DNA from: a virus
IMG/VR virus record: IMGVR_UViG_3300038701_003480
Location: 1-33,020 of that record
Strand: one strand, 5' to 3'
DNA: 33,020 bases
The notes below the pieces were generated by a model. The model saw only the letters and a list, made by a program, of their open reading frames with translations, made no database searches and had not been told where the DNA came from. Below are positions 9,411-27,791 of this stretch, piece after piece (position 1 is the first letter of the stretch; each line of letters opens with the position of its first letter). Position numbers and translations under genes: made by a program.

Positions 9411-9481
9411 CTCAGCATTTTAGCAAAGATGCGGCGTATACAAGCTATTTGATGGACAACTCAAATGTAGGGAAAATACAC

Positions 9482-9536
9482 ACAACTCTTGCTAAAAGCC
9501 ATGCTTCGCACGGGCGTTTAGCTTGGAGTTATGCAC
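9482..9536 (-). repeat. attC-like imperfect inverted repeat (copy twin of 26.9 kb)
   Basis: Arms run AACTCTTGCTAAAAGCC and GGCGTTTAGCTTGGAGTT around a short loop with mispaired bases. It lies immediately downstream of the small gene at 9542, the usual place of attC in a gene cassette. The first 28 bases from 9484 recur exactly at 26936-26963. The ends (AAC and GTT) recall attC core boxes but do not match the consensus perfectly. Confidence 0.55.
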
Positions 9537-9541
9537 AAGCA

Positions 9542-9811
9542 CTACTCATCGTCATTTTCAACCTTTTTAGGTCTTAATACCAACATCAAAGAGTCTGTAT
9601 TCTCATAAGCACGCAAATAACCGCCTTTACATTGGTTTACTGTATATCCTTTGGCACTCGCTGGGCTTCTGTCATACAAAGTACCTGTGTGTGTTTCAAG
9701 CGTAATGTCATCCTGTGGTGTTATCATTTTTAACGCTTGCTTTTCGCTGTCATTTTCAGGAGTTAACATTATTTGCTTAATTCCGTCTGCTATAATAATT
9801 GCTGTTTTCAT
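9542..9811 (-). CDS. Cassette-borne hypothetical protein
   Basis: 89 residues beginning MKTAIIIADGIKQIMLTPEN, a mixed alpha/beta small protein with no membrane segment. The C-terminal half YLRAYENTDSLMLVLRPKK is beta-like. It is flanked on both sides by attC-like inverted repeats and is visibly AT-richer in its intergenic DNA than the phage structural genes. I do not recognise its family. It is probably one cassette of the array, and it is not required by any phage module I can see. Confidence 0.6.
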   Translation of the reverse strand: MKTAIIIADGIKQIMLTPENDSEKQALKMITPQDDITLETHTGTLYDRSPASAKGYTVNQCKGGYLRAYENTDSLMLVLRPKKVENDDE

Positions 9812-9849
9812 TTTTCGTATTTTAATTAAGTTAAGTTTTTAATTTACCG

Positions 9850-9955
9850 TGCCAGATGCATAACAAAGTGTATAGCAAATAGCCGATTAAGGTTTGTAAT
9901 CAATTTCAAGGTTCGTGCTTCGGCTACTTGCCATACACGAGCCGTTGTGGTGCAT
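9850..9955 (-). repeat. attC-like imperfect inverted repeat
   Basis: The arm at 9868-9886 (GTGTATAGCAAATAGCCGA) and the arm at 9920-9938 (TCGGCTACTTGCCATACAC) pair at 17 of 19 positions. Outside them sit GCATAACAA and TTGTGGTGC, resembling the outer boxes of an attC site. It lies between two small genes in the same direction. Confidence 0.6.
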
Positions 9956-10180
9956 TTAAAGACACACTTCTAAAATATCGTCATTATCTATAACCACGTT
10001 TATTTTACCATTCTTCGCTTCTCTGCAAGTTAAAGCCTCATATCTTACTATTTCGTGAGTTCCGAAGTTTAGGTAATTAAGATATTTAATGGTAAAATAT
10101 TCAGGCTTACCATTACGTCTTGGGTTTTTTGCAAGGACTTTATCACCTGCTTTTGCTTTAAAATTAATTGTTACTTCCAT
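9956..10180 (-). CDS. Cassette-borne small hypothetical protein
   Basis: 74 residues: MEVTINFKAKAGDKVLAKNP then a basic turn and EYFTIKYLNYLNFGTHEI, ending in DDDILEVCL-type acidic sequence. The predicted all-beta pattern suggests a small SH3-like or barrel domain, but no family is recognised. It lies between two imperfect inverted repeats and fills its cassette almost completely, with the stop only a few bases from the downstream repeat. Confidence 0.6.
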   Translation of the reverse strand: MEVTINFKAKAGDKVLAKNPRRNGKPEYFTIKYLNYLNFGTHEIVRYEALTCREAKNGKINVVIDNDDILEVCL

Positions 10181-10189
10181 TTAAAAAAC

Positions 10190-10327
10190 GCACCACAACA
10201 ATGTATAACAGCAATAGCGGTTGTAGTGCTTAATTTTAACACTATTGCTTTTTATTAATATTTCAGTTAATCCGACAATCATTCTTTTTTTAATCCGCTA
10301 CTGCGGTTATACTCAACGTTGTGCGCA
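10190..10327 (-). repeat. attC-like imperfect inverted repeat, long spacer
   Basis: The arm at 10203-10220 (GTATAACAGCAATAGCGG) pairs with that at 10295-10312 (CCGCTACTGCGGTTATAC) at 16 of 18 positions, with a 74-base AT-rich spacer. Flanking CACAACAAT and CAACGTTGTGCGC extend the dyad. The long variable spacer is like the long terminal structures of chromosomal integron attC sites. No gene lies in this stretch. Confidence 0.6.
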
Positions 10328-10328
10328 A

Positions 10329-10481
10329 TTAAGAATCCGCTTTAAGAAACCTAATTGAATCCTCATAGCTTTTTATTAGCCTATCGTAGGCTCTTGCAAC
10401 TATATCATTTTCTTGATTTGCTTGCTTCTTTTTTGCTAACCACAAATGAAGTTGCATAAGTTTAATTGTAATCCAAGTCAT
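10329..10481 (-). CDS. Very small cassette protein (50 aa)
   Basis: An open frame from ATG to TAA encoding 50 residues: it begins MTWITIKLMQLHLWLAKKKQ and ends YEDSIRFLKADS. It is basic, helical, and fills the space between two attC-like repeats, which is what supports it as a real cassette gene. There is no family recognition. The hydrophobic N-terminus could be an amphipathic helix. Confidence 0.5.
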   Translation of the reverse strand: MTWITIKLMQLHLWLAKKKQANQENDIVARAYDRLIKSYEDSIRFLKADS

Positions 10482-10492
10482 AATTTAACTTC

Positions 10493-10585
10493 GCACAACA
10501 AAGGCTAAAAAGCATAGCCATGCGACTTTTTGTGTTTTAATGAAGCGTGATTCAGTGGCTACGCTTCTTAGCCAAACCGTTGTAG
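10493..10585 (-). repeat. attC-like imperfect inverted repeat
   Basis: The arm at 10503-10520 (GGCTAAAAAGCATAGCCA) and the arm at 10556-10573 (TGGCTACGCTTCTTAGCC) pair at 16 of 18 positions. Outer boxes GCACAACAAA and CCGTTGTAGG flank them. It lies directly after the stop of the 114-residue cassette gene. Confidence 0.6.
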
Positions 10586-10591
10586 GTAATG

Positions 10592-10936
10592 CTAATCCCA
10601 GTACCAATTGCGAAACATTCTTCTCCCAAAGTAGTTAGCACACTTCCAGAACTGTTCGGTTCTGTCTTCAAATCGTTCTGCCATACTTTCAGGTATCGCA
10701 CAAGATTTGACCTTAGTTCCAAAGCAAAGAACGCCCAAAAACTTAGCTCCAGCATAAAACCTACCATCTGTGCATCCTATCCACCAAATACCCGTTTCAG
10801 TATCTCGATATATTCGATTCATTACACGTTTCTTTTTCAGAAACTTTTGAAGGTTTGGACTCCACCAAGCACTACCTACAACATCTGCTAAAAAAACATT
10901 GTCAGTAGGTTTTTGAATTGTCATTTTGTTACTCAT
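10592..10936 (-). CDS. Cassette-borne hypothetical protein
   Basis: 114 residues, basic, with a Trp-rich centre (SAWWSPNLQKFLKKK, TETGIWWIGCTDGRFY) and a C-terminal FGRRMFRNWYWD. A second ATG four codons in is an alternative start. There are several cysteines but no regular metal-binding spacing. It sits in the cassette-like array with an inverted repeat directly downstream. I do not recognise the family. Confidence 0.6.
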   Translation of the reverse strand: MSNKMTIQKPTDNVFLADVVGSAWWSPNLQKFLKKKRVMNRIYRDTETGIWWIGCTDGRFYAGAKFLGVLCFGTKVKSCAIPESMAERFEDRTEQFWKCANYFGRRMFRNWYWD

Positions 10937-10991
10937 TGTTTGTCTGTTTTTGAAAGTTAGTAATCAACGTTTTTTAGCAGTAACCGTTGTG
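10937..10991 (-). other. Intercassette spacer with weak attC-like ends
   Basis: A 55-base gap between two small genes. It contains AACCGTTGTGCTAC at its right end, matching the outer box of the other repeats, but I cannot find a long paired arm. It may be a degenerate recombination site. Confidence 0.3.
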
Positions 10992-11267
10992 CTACATAGG
11001 TTTATTGCATCCAAAAGCCTTACAACTACTTGGTTTAATGCACTCTTCGCCTTTTCTGTGGCTACATTCCTGCAACTGTTCGCTTTGCCCTACAACATCA
11101 GGTATAGTTAATTTTTTCAAATCAGCTACAACAGCGCAAATAGCCTGAGCATAATGGGAGTTTTGAAGCCTATCTTCTTTTGTGTACATCAACGGGTCAT
11201 CACACACTCTTCTGTGTAAAGCTATTTGCTCATCCCACTTTTCAATCAATTTCTGTAATTCATTCAT
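10992..11267 (-). CDS. Cassette-borne hypothetical protein, Cys-rich C-terminus
   Basis: 91 residues. The N-terminal half (MNELQKLIEKWDEQIALHRR) is helical. The C-terminus has four Cys plus a His (ECSHRKGEECIKPSSCKAFG), which could bind a metal. It lies between cassette-like spacers and has the same orientation as its neighbours. No family is recognised; the Cys cluster is the only functional hint. Confidence 0.6.
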   Translation of the reverse strand: MNELQKLIEKWDEQIALHRRVCDDPLMYTKEDRLQNSHYAQAICAVVADLKKLTIPDVVGQSEQLQECSHRKGEECIKPSSCKAFGCNKPM

Positions 11268-11289
11268 AATTTATCTATTTAAGTCAAAA

Positions 11290-11375
11290 ACTAACCATAC
11301 CTGCGGCACGTTGGTGTGCATTTAGGATGCTTGCACCATAGTTCGGTGTGCCATCGGTTTCATACCTATTTTGTT
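11290..11375 (-). repeat. Inverted-repeat boundary of the cassette region
   Basis: Several short pairings occur here: TTGGTGTGCA against TGCTTGCACCA, and CGGCAC against GTGTGCC, nested around a small loop near 11330. It marks the junction between the small AT-rich genes and the replication operon, where an array entry site would lie. It is less regular than the sites at 9.85-10.6 kb. Confidence 0.4.
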
Positions 11376-11387
11376 TGTGTTTCCTGT

Positions 11388-11669
11388 TCAATAACTCTCC
11401 CGCCTTACATAGTACGGTAGAGGTGTGGATTCATCGGTGCTGGCCTTTGAGATCCGGTATACCTTTTCACGCTGAATGAGCGACTTGAGGTATTCCAGGT
11501 TTGTCTCTGTACGTAAGCGCCCCATGAATAAATTTTCAGACTCATCTGCATAGAGGTATGGCATGAGCATGTTGAGGCGCTCATTTCCATTTCCATCAAT
11601 ATGGGTGAAATCATCCCATGTTGCGAGCTCCCAGTAGGAGTCGAGACGTATGAGTTTTGGTGATATCAT
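11388..11669 (-). CDS. Hypothetical protein, end of early region
   Basis: 93 residues starting MISPKLIRLDSYWELATWDD, acidic in the middle, soluble, no motif recognised. It is separated from the helicase gene by the repeat-rich candidate origin and is the last same-direction gene before the cassette-like array. Its base composition is closer to that of the phage genes than to the cassettes, so I count it as phage backbone. Confidence 0.55.
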   Translation of the reverse strand: MISPKLIRLDSYWELATWDDFTHIDGNGNERLNMLMPYLYADESENLFMGRLRTETNLEYLKSLIQREKVYRISKASTDESTPLPYYVRRESY

Positions 11670-11739: not shown

Positions 11740-11880
11740 ATTCCGTTCCAACGTTCCAACAATCCAACAGTCCAACAAAAACACCTAGTAATCCAACAGT
11801 ATCCAACAGTATCCAACACATATATATATTCTATCTTATTATTATTCAATTACTTATTATATTGTTGGAACGTTGGAACA
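11740..11880. other. Candidate replication origin: TCCAAC iterons plus AT-rich segment
   Basis: Seven direct copies of TCCAAC start at 11747, 11755, 11763, 11771, 11792, 11802 and 11812, mostly 8 or 10 bases apart. They are followed by about 45 bases of almost pure A/T. Then come two inverted copies at 11864 and 11872. The outer 16-mer at 11745-11760 is an exact inverted repeat of 11864-11879. Iterons beside an AT-rich unwinding element are the plan of many phage and plasmid origins, and this lies directly behind the helicase gene. The segment 11670-11923 has no gene. Confidence 0.6.
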
Positions 11881-11923
11881 GATGTTTGTTCTGTTTTCAT
11901 AAATCTATCTCTATTGGGTGTTT

Positions 11924-14155
11924 TTAGAATACTTGCCCATTACCATTTGGCCAGTTCTTAGGGGAAACCTTACTATCCATAGGGTATTCAGAATCTGGTT
12001 CATTCATTCCAACATTCTCCAACCTTGGATCCCATTTTTGGGCAATTTGAATGTCTTTTAGCTCCGTTTGTTGGATCGTTGTGTCGAAAACAAGTCCACT
12101 GGTGTTTTTTGTTACACCTTCACCCTTCTTCCATCTTGTACTCTTAATGACGCCTAAATAGCCTGCCGAATTCTCCAGGTATTGGCTCAGAGATTGTTTA
12201 TTCATTCCTGTTTTTCCCCATTTCCTACGGTAGCTTTCCAGGTATTCAGAGTGTATATCATTAAGCCTTACAACAAGAAGGTCACGTTTAGATTCAAAGT
12301 CGATTTGCTTGTATCCTTTTTTTCCATCTGTGACTTTGATGCTCGAAGCATCGGGTATGAACTTATAGTGCCATTCTTCAGTTATTTGCCCTTTTTCCGC
12401 AAGGTTCTCTACTATATTCCAGAACTCTCCTAAAGAGTCACTTTCTTGGATGAGTGAACTTACCCTTGCAACCTCAGATCTGATCCATTGATCAATTTCA
12501 TCATTTCTCCATGGGAGGGTAAATCGGTTCCCAACAAACTTTAAGCAAGCCGATAGAACGCAGTAGTTACGGAGCACTCTTTCAAGGAAGTTTGTTTTAG
12601 ATGAGCTTAAGTAATCTCTTGTCTCAGAAAATACATCTGCAAAAATTCTACTGTACTTGTTCTTGAATTCTGTTCTGAATGGAATCAATTCCCTGACAAG
12701 TCCAGTTAATCCTTTTTGTTCAAGATCCTCTTTTAGATGCCGATACGCCTCCACTTGCTCTTTCGGTCTGTTCCTATTCGATTGCCCATCGAATGGAACC
12801 AGAATACATCGGCTAAGAGCAGAATTATCGTCTCTAGTGCTCAAGTATTGGCCAGTGAGAACTACAGCACTGTTGTATTTTTGAGTTTCAGTTTTTCTTT
12901 TGGAGCCCCCTTTCCCGCGCTGTCTCCCAGCACCGTCAAAAATTGACTTAATCGTTTGAAACCTTTCTTCATCGATTGCATTGTCATCAAACTCATCCAT
13001 CCATACCACACAATTTCTGAACTGTTCCAGGTACCTTGAAAAGGCGAATGCCGTTCCATGGTTCAAATTGAAAGGAGGCATTTGATTGAAGAAAAATGCA
13101 CTGATAGACTCTGCAAACTTCGACTTTCCGCTTTGCTTTTGTCCATAGCATGAAAGAAGGGGACAGTTATTATCCAGTTGAAATACAACGTCCTTGAATA
13201 ATCCAATCACCACAAAACCTACCGCTGCAATAGCCTTACCCGGATACACCTTTTCCATAAGTGATGTCCATTCTTCAAAGTTTATTTTGGGCTCTATGAA
13301 TTTGATATATCGATCATTTTCATATTCATCCTCCTCCATTAGTCCCTGATAAACTTTACTCGCAGCAGGACTAAAGAACCTTTCCTTATTGTAGTCTGCT
13401 ATTCCCATTTCGTCAAAATGCACAAGGTTGTTCTCAATATCTAACATGGAGTTATACCAAGCCCAAAACCCCTTTGACTGCCATCCCAGTGTTCGCAGCT
13501 CATAGCACATAGGAAATGAGTTGCTGATTTTACTCAGTATTTTCATCAGGTGAACCTTTGTGCCAAAAAACAAGTAGTTGCCCTGTTCAAATACGGTTTT
13601 GCAGAATTGATCTAAACTAACCATTGCCCCGCTAGGCATCTCTATCACCTGATTTGATATTCCATTATCAATTTCCAGAATTCGCTTGTTATCCTCTAAG
13701 CTGTTGATGTGAAAGAATGGCTTAATTATGAAGTTGCTCTTTTGAGTAAACCCTTCTTTTGAAGGGAAGTAGTAGCCCGTTTTCAGTCCATCTGTGACTT
13801 CAAAAAAACCATACTTGTGATACTCTTGCTTATCCACTCCAGGTGGCAACTGAATATCAAACTCATTTACTGATGTTGAAGGTCCGGTTTTATCCTTCCT
13901 GATGTTTTTACTCATTCCACTTTTGAGGGCTTCATCATATTCCTTGCTTTTAATCTTGAACTGCTTCATCAATTGAGACTTGTAGTCTTGCCTCACAGTA
14001 AGGCTAGGAATTTGATTGACTGCAATTGCTACTTGTTGAATTGCTTCACTTTTTAGGTAGGCATCATCTCCGGCTTCACCGATTAAGTGTTGAGCCATCC
14101 ACACAACTCCATCTTGTTTCATGGAGCTTACAGTATCGGTTAATTTGTTGGTCAT
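11924..14155 (-). CDS. Replicative helicase with DnaG-C-like N-terminus
   Basis: 743 residues. The first ~85 residues (GEAGDDAYLKSEAIQQVAIA, then VRQDYKSQLMKQFKI) resemble the C-terminal, helicase-binding segment of DnaG primase. The central part has a Walker A motif (CYGQKQSGKSKF) near residue 340 and a Walker B motif (CVVWMDEFDD) near 400, then SAVVLTGQYLSTRDD, a sensor-like strand, as in SF3/DUF927-type phage helicases. It would unwind DNA at the origin. The primase at 16.4-17.5 kb ends about where this N-terminus would continue. The candidate origin lies directly downstream. Confidence 0.7.
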   Translation of the reverse strand: MTNKLTDTVSSMKQDGVVWMAQHLIGEAGDDAYLKSEAIQQVAIAVNQIPSLTVRQDYKSQLMKQFKIKSKEYDEALKSGMSKNIRKDKTGPSTSVNEFDIQLPPGVDKQEYHKYGFFEVTDGLKTGYYFPSKEGFTQKSNFIIKPFFHINSLEDNKRILEIDNGISNQVIEMPSGAMVSLDQFCKTVFEQGNYLFFGTKVHLMKILSKISNSFPMCYELRTLGWQSKGFWAWYNSMLDIENNLVHFDEMGIADYNKERFFSPAASKVYQGLMEEDEYENDRYIKFIEPKINFEEWTSLMEKVYPGKAIAAVGFVVIGLFKDVVFQLDNNCPLLSCYGQKQSGKSKFAESISAFFFNQMPPFNLNHGTAFAFSRYLEQFRNCVVWMDEFDDNAIDEERFQTIKSIFDGAGRQRGKGGSKRKTETQKYNSAVVLTGQYLSTRDDNSALSRCILVPFDGQSNRNRPKEQVEAYRHLKEDLEQKGLTGLVRELIPFRTEFKNKYSRIFADVFSETRDYLSSSKTNFLERVLRNYCVLSACLKFVGNRFTLPWRNDEIDQWIRSEVARVSSLIQESDSLGEFWNIVENLAEKGQITEEWHYKFIPDASSIKVTDGKKGYKQIDFESKRDLLVVRLNDIHSEYLESYRRKWGKTGMNKQSLSQYLENSAGYLGVIKSTRWKKGEGVTKNTSGLVFDTTIQQTELKDIQIAQKWDPRLENVGMNEPDSEYPMDSKVSPKNWPNGNGQVF

Positions 14156-19935: not shown

Positions 19936-19967
19936 TCTGGATGGGGATTTTAGAAATAAATGAACCA

Positions 19968-21173
19968 ATGAGCCAAAACGTACAAAAAAGCAATTCTGGA
20001 CAGGATTTGTCCAAAATTCGTCCAACCGACTTCAGGTTTTCGAAAACCGTTTATCTCAACTCTTATCGAGATGAATCTGGAAGAGGTCAGGTTTACCTCA
20101 GTGTGACCATAAACCGCAAGAGAACCAAGATCCCATTGGGCATATATGTGCGCCCTGATCATTTCTCTAAAAAGTCAAAACGCATCCTCTCATCATGCAA
20201 AGAGGCCAACGATTACAATCTCATCATCGGCCAAGCAGAAAAAAAGGCAAACGACATACTCGTTCGTCATCGGCTGGATGACAAGCCGATTTCGGCATCT
20301 GAGTTCAAGAGCAAGTATTTCTCAGGTCCTAGTACCGGAAACTTCATCGAGTTTGGACTGGCAACTATCAAAAAAAGATCGGGTGAACTCAGTGCTCAAA
20401 CCATCCGCACACAAAAAGGAGATTTTGGAAAGTTGACTGAATTCAAGTCATACATTGGATTTGGAGATTTAGACTATCAACTCATCTTCGATTTTAACCA
20501 CTGGATGAGCACCCACCTACTGAATAAGCAGAACACCCGCCAAAAAACATTAAAGACAATCCGTACCTACGTTCGAATAGCATTGAAGCAAGGGTACATT
20601 GCTGAAGATCCTTTTAAGGATTTCAAGATATCGGTACAGAAAACCCAAAAGGTATATCTCGAACCGGATGAAGTAAAGAGGCTTGAGGGATTGTACGATA
20701 GTGGCGAGTTGCCTACTGGCTTGCAGAACACTCTACAGTGTTTTCTGTTCTGCTGCTTTTGCGGTGGAGTTCGTGTTTCTGACGTTAAGCAGCTCAACCA
20801 ACACAACGTGAAAGGCAATCGATTGGTCTACGTTCCTCAGAAAACCAGGTCAAAAAGCACCAAGATGGTGGAGGTTCCTATAATTGATCGCGCAAAAAAA
20901 TACATGAATAAAGAAGGCATGTTGGTAAACTCCTACACCAACCAGGTGATGAATCGAAACCTAAAAAGGATTGCCAATCTTGCCAACATAGATAAGAAGG
21001 TGACTTTTCACGTGTCGAGACACACCTTTGCCACGCTATTCATTAACACTGGAGGAAGCGCAGAAGTTTTGCGTCCGCTCATGGGGCATGAAAGCCTTAA
21101 GTCGACCATGGTATATGTGTCGGTTACAGAGCAGGCGAAAAAGGAACAGATATCACGGATGAACAATGTTTAG
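19968..21173 (+). CDS. int: Tyrosine-family site-specific integrase
   Basis: 401 residues from the second ATG (MSQNVQKS), which has an A-rich upstream region; an ATG at 19941 is the alternative. The N-terminus is an arm-binding domain (YLNSYRDESGRGQVYLSVTI), the middle a SAM-like core-binding domain, and the C-terminus the catalytic domain: GGVRVSDVKQL (Arg), HVSRHTFATLF (His-x-x-Arg), LMGHESLKSTMVYVS (His and Tyr). It integrates and excises the phage. It is convergent with the tape-measure gene: the two stop codons overlap (21170-21173). Confidence 0.92.
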   Translation: MSQNVQKSNSGQDLSKIRPTDFRFSKTVYLNSYRDESGRGQVYLSVTINRKRTKIPLGIYVRPDHFSKKSKRILSSCKEANDYNLIIGQAEKKANDILVRHRLDDKPISASEFKSKYFSGPSTGNFIEFGLATIKKRSGELSAQTIRTQKGDFGKLTEFKSYIGFGDLDYQLIFDFNHWMSTHLLNKQNTRQKTLKTIRTYVRIALKQGYIAEDPFKDFKISVQKTQKVYLEPDEVKRLEGLYDSGELPTGLQNTLQCFLFCCFCGGVRVSDVKQLNQHNVKGNRLVYVPQKTRSKSTKMVEVPIIDRAKKYMNKEGMLVNSYTNQVMNRNLKRIANLANIDKKVTFHVSRHTFATLFINTGGSAEVLRPLMGHESLKSTMVYVSVTEQAKKEQISRMNNV

Positions 21174-26929: not shown

Positions 26930-26986
26930 CCTCATAACTCTTGCTAAAAGCCATGCTTCGCACAGCGTTTAGCATGGAGTTAGCCA
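26930..26986 (-). repeat. attC-like repeat, near-identical to the one at 9.5 kb
   Basis: The 28 bases at 26936-26963 equal those from 9484, and the following arm differs by a few bases. It forms an imperfect inverted repeat with AACTC and GAGTT ends. It lies directly after the stop of the 103-residue gene, as in a cassette. Confidence 0.6.
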
Positions 26987-26989
26987 CCA

Positions 26990-27301
26990 TTAAAACGCCT
27001 TCAATTTAGCGTACCTTTCAGCAGTCATTACCACAGATGAAGGGTAAGGACTTACAGCGTATTTTATTGCTTTAGGCGTTACAGTGATGGTATTATACCA
27101 ACTCCATCTTTTCTCAATACATTCCTCACCTTTAATTTTTTGTTCCATATCAGAGTTATCGACCACTTCCATTAAACCACAGAATTCAAGTATCTTCATT
27201 AGCTCGCCATTCGGCATAGTGCAGAAATTAACGGTGGCTAACAATGGCTCATACTCCATGCCTTTGTCTGTGCTTTTTTGAGTGTTTTTTGCTTCGCTCA
27301 T
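26990..27301 (-). CDS. Cassette-like hypothetical protein
   Basis: 103 residues beginning MSEAKNTQKSTDKGMEYEPL, soluble, with an ILEFCGLMEVVDNSDMEQK middle and a C-terminal TVTPKAIKYAVSPYPSSVVM. It is not recognisable as a phage function. Its flanks are an attC-like repeat downstream and a hairpin-rich junction upstream, while its neighbours (patatin, membrane protein) are otherwise contiguous phage genes. It looks like a single captured cassette. Confidence 0.6.
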   Translation of the reverse strand: MSEAKNTQKSTDKGMEYEPLLATVNFCTMPNGELMKILEFCGLMEVVDNSDMEQKIKGEECIEKRWSWYNTITVTPKAIKYAVSPYPSSVVMTAERYAKLKAF

Positions 27302-27319
27302 AGTTCAGTAATATTTGAA

Positions 27320-27365
27320 AGTTTCGCTCTCGTTTTACGGCACGAGAGCATAGTCGTAGCCGTTA
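27320..27365. repeat. Hairpin-rich upstream junction of the solitary cassette
   Basis: GCTCTCG pairs with CGAGAGC (7 bases), and ACGGC with GCCGT just outside. This 62-base spacer lies at the 5' side of the cassette-like gene and may be the partner recombination site. Confidence 0.4.
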
Positions 27366-27791
27366 AGTATCCCTCTCAGGATGCTTGTACACGCACCCGT
27401 GTTTTCTGCAATCGAATTGGTCACTGTACATCCGGTAGAAATGTTGAATTTCGGAGATGGTAAATGAGGCCTTCTGGCTTACGTTGTAGTCGTATTGAAT
27501 GTCTTTGAGCCACCCCTTTACAACTCGTTGCCGTAGAATACCACCCACAAAAGCCACCACGATAAAAAGGACAACGGGACCGATAAGCCACCAAAGGGAA
27601 TTCTGCCACCCAATCTTATGATCAATAACAGCAGCAAATGAGAGCGCCAGAATTCCGGCGAAGATTCTGAGGAATTGGCCGTACCTGTCTTTGTAGGCAA
27701 CAAACTTTTCGTAAGGCGTAAACCACGATGGGCGATTTACAAACGTGCATGCGAACTTCTCCAACAAATGGAAGTCAATTTCTTTGCTCAT
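27363..27791 (-). CDS. Membrane protein in the lysis block
   Basis: 142 residues. Two hydrophobic stretches, residues 42-60 (FLRIFAGILALSFAAVI) and 66-88 (SLWWLIGPVVLFIVVAFVGG), make it an inner-membrane protein with both ends probably cytoplasmic. The C-terminal end DCRKHGCVYKH has paired Cys and His. It overlaps the endolysin stop by 4 bases and is therefore translated with it. It may be a spanin-like, anti-holin or exclusion protein. Not recognised. Confidence 0.65.
   Translation of the reverse strand: MSKEIDFHLLEKFACTFVNRPSWFTPYEKFVAYKDRYGQFLRIFAGILALSFAAVIDHKIGWQNSLWWLIGPVVLFIVVAFVGGILRQRVVKGWLKDIQYDYNVSQKASFTISEIQHFYRMYSDQFDCRKHGCVYKHPERDT

Follow-up and report, generated by a model that had tools for sequence, protein, structure and literature searches.

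How does a phage genome in which no integron integrase can be recognized come to carry small genes laid out like integron cassettes? The question is raised by IMGVR_UViG_3300038701_003480, a 33,020-base virus record of IMG/VR whose full length is here called the window, and by two stretches on its minus strand: array 1 (9483–11316), in which imperfect hairpins with outer boxes of the AAC/GTT type stand between five small genes, and array 2 (26935–27368), a second array of one cassette. A preliminary description of this DNA had read the first of these as a set of integron-type cassettes, with attC-like sites, in a phage genome, and both site finders and an independently built covariance model support that view. 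The window very probably represents a temperate phage with two integrase-less integron-type arrays, one of four or five cassettes and the other of one, whose cassettes move as circles and whose recombinase most likely acts in trans. Sequence comparison shows the sites and their covarying structure, the ends and precise boundaries of the cassettes, and the association of such sites with a recombinase and an attI in other loci; that the enzyme acting on the window's own sites is a XerA-like recombinase supplied in trans is the most likely reading.

attC-Like Sites in the Window and in Other Viral Contigs

The gene junctions of the minus strand share the plan NNNNAAC-spacer-stem-loop-stem-spacer-GTTNNNN, and AAC/GTT boxes occur at all sites of the window. 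In the 2-kb interval an attC-like finder returned two sites scoring at least 18, against 0.005 expected per dinucleotide shuffle, and an orientation-specific finder placed J1–J4 all on the minus strand, together with one weak site. The five co-directional open reading frames (ORFs) of the preliminary description are all present, all on the minus strand, as are its four hairpins (9484–9531 is J5, 9868–9938 is J4, 10203–10312 is J3, and 10503–10573 is J2); the array it outlined is real, but J1 (10876–10992), the tentative J0 (11090–11316) and the whole of array 2 had escaped it.

A degenerate pattern taken from the 5′ half of J4 only was scanned over IMG/VR. All 12 matching loci also had a 3′ half complementary to it, as well as the GTT box, though the pattern required neither; homologous counterparts of J4 are present in loci L020, L025, and L049. 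A covariance model, R1, was then made from 28 aligned sites of these loci, none of them from the window. These sites share a 17-pair stem with two-sided changes in 14 of the 17 pairs and with 97.9% of cells paired, a percentage inflated by the choice of 17 of the 28 sites with a pairing-based finder, a bias of which the 12 pattern-found loci are free. The covariation score is 0.70 against 0.17 in shuffles, none of which was equally good, and sliding the stem partners lowers pairing to 25–53%. Two stem positions are almost always G.T on the gene-sense strand, which gives A.C mismatches on the other.

The preliminary description had expected a covariance model to recognize the interval, and R1 does so: it finds J4 (80 bits), J3 (75), J2 (60), and J1 (50) and, in array 2, J6 (50), with E from 2e-14 to 5e-8. 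In roughly 300 kb of DNA from control phages it returned zero matches. None was returned for 16 loci of other phages, for two further genomes of phages, or for one additional phage region, P12002L and a Vibrio phage carrying a true Vibrio integron being blank. An Rfam scan of the window likewise gave zero matches. The exact J4-type pattern had no match in 84,980 genomes, being too narrow to show the distribution of such sites in bacterial chromosomes. For the tentative J0, GGTATGGTTAGTTTT pairs with AAAATTAACTATACC by manual pairing; both conserved G.T positions are kept and the site folds accordingly, and R1 gives it 16 bits, which is not significant.

No integron integrase was found in the window, as the preliminary description had stated for this DNA: the best match to the IntI model TIGR02249, at 45 bits against a cut-off of 265, belongs to the sole integrase there, a phage-type tyrosine integrase (19941–21173), and this holds for the record as given, which is possibly a fragment. 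With at least two attC-like sites within 4 kb (J1–J4, by R1), a conserved single-strand hairpin with outer R boxes and, within the record as given, no integron integrase nearby, array 1 has the make-up of a cluster of attC sites lacking an integron integrase (CALIN). The mark of a complete integron, an integrase with an adjoining attI, is missing from the window within the limits of the record.

Table 1. Features of the two arrays (positions in the window; own ends, matches between the two ends of the same cassette).
Feature	Position	Strand	Description	Scores
J5	9483–9530	−	short attC-like hairpin, 48 nt, end of array 1	fold z −3.3 to −3.5; too short for R1
C5	9542–9811	−	cassette gene, 89 aa, PHROG 29681 (function unknown)	own ends 9/14, ending at R″ 9528
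J4	9858–9950	−	attC-like site, 93 nt	R1 80.3 bits, E 2.1e-14
C4	9956–10180	−	cassette gene, 74 aa, no family match	own ends 13/14
J3	10193–10324	−	attC-like site, 132 nt	R1 75.5 bits, E 2.1e-13; fold z −2.4/−2.8
C3	10329–10481	−	cassette gene, 50 aa	own ends 12/14
J2	10493–10585	−	attC-like site, 93 nt	R1 60.2 bits, E 2.9e-10; fold z −3.1
C2	10592–10936	−	cassette gene, 114 aa	own ends 13/14
J1	10876–10992	−	attC-like site, 117 nt, partly coding, R′ box within ORF 10592–10936	R1 49.6 bits, E 4.5e-8
C1	10992–11267	−	gene, 91 aa, VVGxSEQ motif; cassette status uncertain	own ends 9/14, tied with two other cassettes
J0	11090–11316	−	tentative long attC-like site, 227 nt, mostly coding for C1	manual pairing
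J6	27236–27368	−	attC-like site of array 2, 133 nt, partly coding	R1 49.9 bits, E 3.8e-8
C6	26990–27301	−	cassette gene, 103 aa, start within J6 loop	own ends 13/14
J7	26935–26981	−	second copy of J5 hairpin, 47 bases, end of array 2	fold z −4.1

Cassette Units and Gene Polarity

Circularization at the R box requires that the two ends of one cassette be complementary to each other. Of the 13 positions beyond GTT, 8.75 agree between own ends; for the two boxes that face each other at a junction the figure is 4.34, the chance level, random pairs giving 4.41 (n = 57 and 83, 57 being the number of cassettes). The agreement spans positions 1–10 and 12–14, while at position 11 a G/A difference is conserved (39 of 46), which again makes a G.T pair. 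Four of the six window cassettes (C2, C3, C4, and C6) match at 12–13 of 14 positions, each of them beating every other cassette. Cassette-specific pairing of this kind is the predicted signature of units that move as circles.

The extent of a unit is outlined by a 360-nt block that is 99.2% identical between contigs L024 and L050, its flanks there being unrelated. The block begins close to an AAC box, stops exactly at the following one, and encloses a hairpin with the gene that comes next. Where a site is long, the start codon is often located in its loop, and the frame reads across L′ and R′ before it enters the gene and stops at the next box. ORFs that start inside a site include C2 of the window (in the J1 loop, running through L′ and R′), C6 likewise in J6, and gp033 of Cellulophaga phage phi19:3. 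Translated recombination sites were observed in L044, in L053, and at 10876–10936 of the window, and a leader, MKKEQNLNNAETQALNIPVV, is common to phi19:3 and contig G009 (see below), ahead of different proteins. On the strength of the shared block and of the ORFs that start inside sites, the cassette unit is an attC body plus the downstream gene. The "gene plus repeat" unit of the preliminary description is thereby reversed, the hairpin belonging to the gene that follows it, and its orientation of the sites relative to the genes was dropped.

Classical attC sites have the form TAACAA...CGTTA, and relative to that polarity the direction of the genes is inverted. In a classical cassette the gene precedes its attC and lies in the sense of the attC, which is not the arrangement seen here; the complementarity of own ends, with a complete site in the circle, is shared with classical cassettes. 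Genes of the viral arrays lie on the R1 strand by 41 to 1, unlike those of Bacteroidota plasmids with R1-family sites, which lie on the opposite strand, the usual orientation, by 11 to 1.

These observations also bear on whether the arrays could be ordinary, immobile small phage genes split by transcription terminators or RNA hairpins. The hairpins do sit between co-directional genes, and several fold well single-stranded, but no T-run lies past them and their AAC/GTT boxes are conserved. The cassette-specific end pairing, the recurrence of a near-identical unit in unrelated flanks, and the homologous sites that adjoin a recombinase in other contigs (see below) likewise make such an explanation highly improbable.

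Recombinase and attI-Like Motif in Related Loci

Partial matches to TIGR02249 adjoin the arrays of three viral contigs and of a Persicobacter plasmid, always skipping model positions ~195–250; in one of the three viral contigs (G006) the gene is interrupted by a stop. The recombinase of G009 (~265 aa) has XerA (NF040815) as its best NCBIfam model and falls ~48 residues short of IntI4 (2a3v) in the segment from its position 172 to 210; Xer structures align with it in one stretch. The additional IntI domain near patch III is missing from the array-adjoining recombinases; Ghaly et al. (PMC9668308) treat this extra domain as a defining feature of IntI.

Relatives of this recombinase are encoded in at least 374 stretches of IMG/VR. 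When 75 recombinase-bearing viral loci were scanned with R1, 26 were found to hold 129 sites, every one on the recombinase strand and 126 upstream of the recombinase. In the interval from the last cassette to the start of the recombinase gene, and within 130 nt of the latter, the attI-like motif AACTATTATATATA or a variant of it was present in 47 of 70 loci, compared with 85 of 4824 control windows; L050 has a single cassette, which ends at such a motif with no recombinase match there. Viral loci in which sites, recombinase, and attI-like motif come together are, by these predicted parts, complete integrons in all but the IntI domain. Nine of 29 array-bearing records match a terminase model, the 266-kb G009 among them; at least part of the contigs with arrays are phages, and some may be host DNA.

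The G009 record (IMGVR_UViG_3300000931_000001, 265,845 bases; L064, L043–L044) has ~27 R1 sites, with an attI-like motif and the XerA-like recombinase at the array end. It is likely a jumbo phage, and its genome is probably circular, since the array runs across both contig ends.

Inverted ends on each unit, of ~14 bases, would also be expected of transposon-like units or of miniature inverted-repeat transposable elements. The units abut head to tail, however, the hairpin between two units is itself part of a unit, and complete arrays end in a fixed insertion site with a tyrosine recombinase, so that an origin of this sort is scarcely credible.

Putative Docking Sites and Proposed Movement of Cassettes

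Across 48 aligned columns J7 differs from J5 by one gap and three substitutions, and each stands at the same end of its array (in array 2 the order is J6, gene C6, J7). The presence of two near-identical short hairpins at equivalent array ends suggests that they are resident docking sites, which would occupy the place that attI has in related systems. The outer end past J5 (GTTGTGTGTATTT) resembles the outer end past J0 (GTTGGTGTGCATTT), as would be expected if cassettes had entered one resident site.

Under the mechanism proposed here, a cassette, composed of an attC-like hairpin body and the small gene after it, would move as a circle whose two ends pair over ~14 bases; circles would be inserted beside the resident short hairpin J5 or J7, reshuffling also being possible. 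The genes would be carried inverted relative to the polarity of the recombination sites, some of them starting inside a site. The enzyme would act in trans, as a small XerA-like recombinase from the host or from a co-infecting virus, and the cassette genes, all of which point with the phage operon, would probably be read from the phage's own promoters.

Several observations weigh against this reading. A XerA-like recombinase is absent from the window, which would therefore be a CALIN probably filled in trans. J5 and J7 are unlike both the TATATA attI motif and R1, and no further copy of their pattern was found in viral contigs. Own ends are weak for C5 and for C1 (9 of 14 each, tied in the case of C1). 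Where the preliminary description had expected the repeats to fold, J2, J3, and J5 do stand out (Table 1), whereas the minimum-energy fold of J1 by itself is unremarkable (z −0.4). The finder bias in the R1 sites counts here too, and no related phage with an empty site, nor any close relative of the window phage, was found.

Comparison with Known Integrons

Integrase-less arrays in phages have been reported before: Qi et al. (2023; PMC9892861) described CALINs in Polaribacter phage P12002L, Tetrasphaera phage TJE1, and Pseudoalteromonas phage PH101, and five of six tested phage CALIN sites were recombined by IntI1; Cellulophaga is unmentioned in the main text. Like those phages, the window has attC-like sites and small genes but no integrase; unlike them, it has inverted genes, ends that pair over ~14 bases, translatable sites, and a related recombinase that is XerA-like, and R1 is blank in P12002L. 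Phage CALINs being already known, it is the polarity, the translated sites, and the recombinase type that make the window array a new variant.

The closest isolated counterpart is Cellulophaga phage phi19:3 (KC821608; L053, 641–3901), a Bacteroidota phage with three R1 sites (85, 84, and 43 bits), in which an ORF again starts inside a site and cassette ends carry the same G/A mismatch; its gp032 and C1 of the window both carry the VVGxSEQ motif. The phi19:3 array ends in the attI-like AACAATGTTATATAAC, near a 418-aa tyrosine recombinase (gp036), whereas the window has J5 and J7 and no recombinase nearby.

Imperfect palindromic sites, GTT-type R boxes, and one small gene per site are shared with class 1 and Vibrio integrons, as is, in the related viral contigs, an integrase divergent from the polarity of attC. 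Differences lie in the recombinase, ~48 residues short at the extra domain of IntI, in the reversed cassette genes, and in the failure of R1 to find Vibrio sites. Arrays of the same R1 site family are present on Persicobacter, Flagellimonas, and Chryseobacterium plasmids, where the annotated "site-specific tyrosine recombinase/integron integrase" belongs to the same recombinase family as that of the viral loci. A complete integron in Bacteroidetes proper was reported with IntegronFinder 2.0 from Salinibacter ruber only (PMC9024848).

The preliminary description had derived the array from a chromosomal integron, that is, as standard cassettes (a gene with a downstream attC, moved by an IntI-type integrase) captured from a bacterial chromosome. 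The attC plan, the single small genes, and the lack of an integrase fit such a source, as do the known phage CALINs with IntI1-active attCs and the Bacteroidota plasmids that bear R1-family sites with genes in the usual orientation. The shared unit, however, is an attC with its downstream gene; genes of the viral arrays are inverted almost without exception; the associated recombinases are without the IntI-specific segment; and R1 does not match Vibrio integron sites. Capture of standard cassettes is accordingly judged unlikely. With the closest arrays sitting in other viral contigs and in the isolated Cellulophaga phage, exchange between phages is at least as likely as origin from a chromosomal integron.

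In the open-access literature no paper was found on integrons of this polarity or enzyme type, and the class to which the window array belongs may be new. We lean, by a narrow balance, towards a distinct integron class in Bacteroidota phages, with a XerA-like recombinase that lacks the IntI domain, a TATATA-type attI, and inverted genes that often start inside a translated attC; the window phage would be a client of it, with two docking sites and the recombinase in trans. If so, the capture of single-gene cassettes would be common in Bacteroidota phages, with a simpler, Xer-like enzyme in charge; the evolution of the integron integrase from Xer could be put to the test, and the shuffling of small accessory genes between unrelated phages would be explained. 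Such phages seem to trade single genes as integron-bearing bacteria do.

The Phage Genome and Additional Observations

Phage genes of the window include those for a tape measure protein, head maturation protease, primase, and DNA methyltransferase, besides a patatin-like lipase and an M15 peptidase. The tyrosine integrase has the domains Arm-DNA-bind_5 and SAM_5, a pair typical of Bacteroidota elements, and this together with the gene content indicates that the window most probably represents a temperate phage whose host belongs to the Bacteroidota. G+C is ~35% across array 1 and 45% on its left side. Near and distant searches of the window DNA against phages gave short matches only, one of them leading to phi19:3. 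Of the Bacteroidetes connection foreseen in the preliminary description, the site family did turn up in Bacteroidota plasmids, but the cassette proteins C1, C2, C4, and C5 gave no useful relatives, nor did the primase. Function prediction for the cassette genes yielded a PHROG match for C5 alone.

Among the plasmids, that of Flagellimonas marinaquae (L056, NZ_CP092416.1, 7889–9983) has two R1 sites, a dihydrofolate reductase family gene, and erm(F); its ends agree over nine bases (GTTATGCGG), and the stretch reaches an attI-like site before a "xerA" recombinase. On an Arenibacter plasmid (L060) the attI is the same and the recombinase similar, but the sequence beyond the AAC box differs. From the Flagellimonas locus, the XerA-like integron type may carry resistance genes. 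Large R1-family arrays with genes in the opposite orientation occur on pPP2 of Persicobacter psychrovividus (L033, L047), where the cassette gene WP_338398677.1 occurs twice. In a Parabacteroides distasonis plasmid (L062, NZ_OY725747.1) a related recombinase heads an array of type VI secretion system immunity genes (Tdi1, SMI1/KNR4), which we take to resemble rAID-1. The rAID-1 of gut Bacteroidales was considered as a parent system and rejected, L062 having the related recombinase but zero R1 sites.

Adjoining the primase/ATPase gene of the window (11924–14155), a stretch at 11742–11882 holds a 95% inverted repeat of 22 bases around TCCAACA units and an AT-rich stretch, and looks like a replication origin with iterons.

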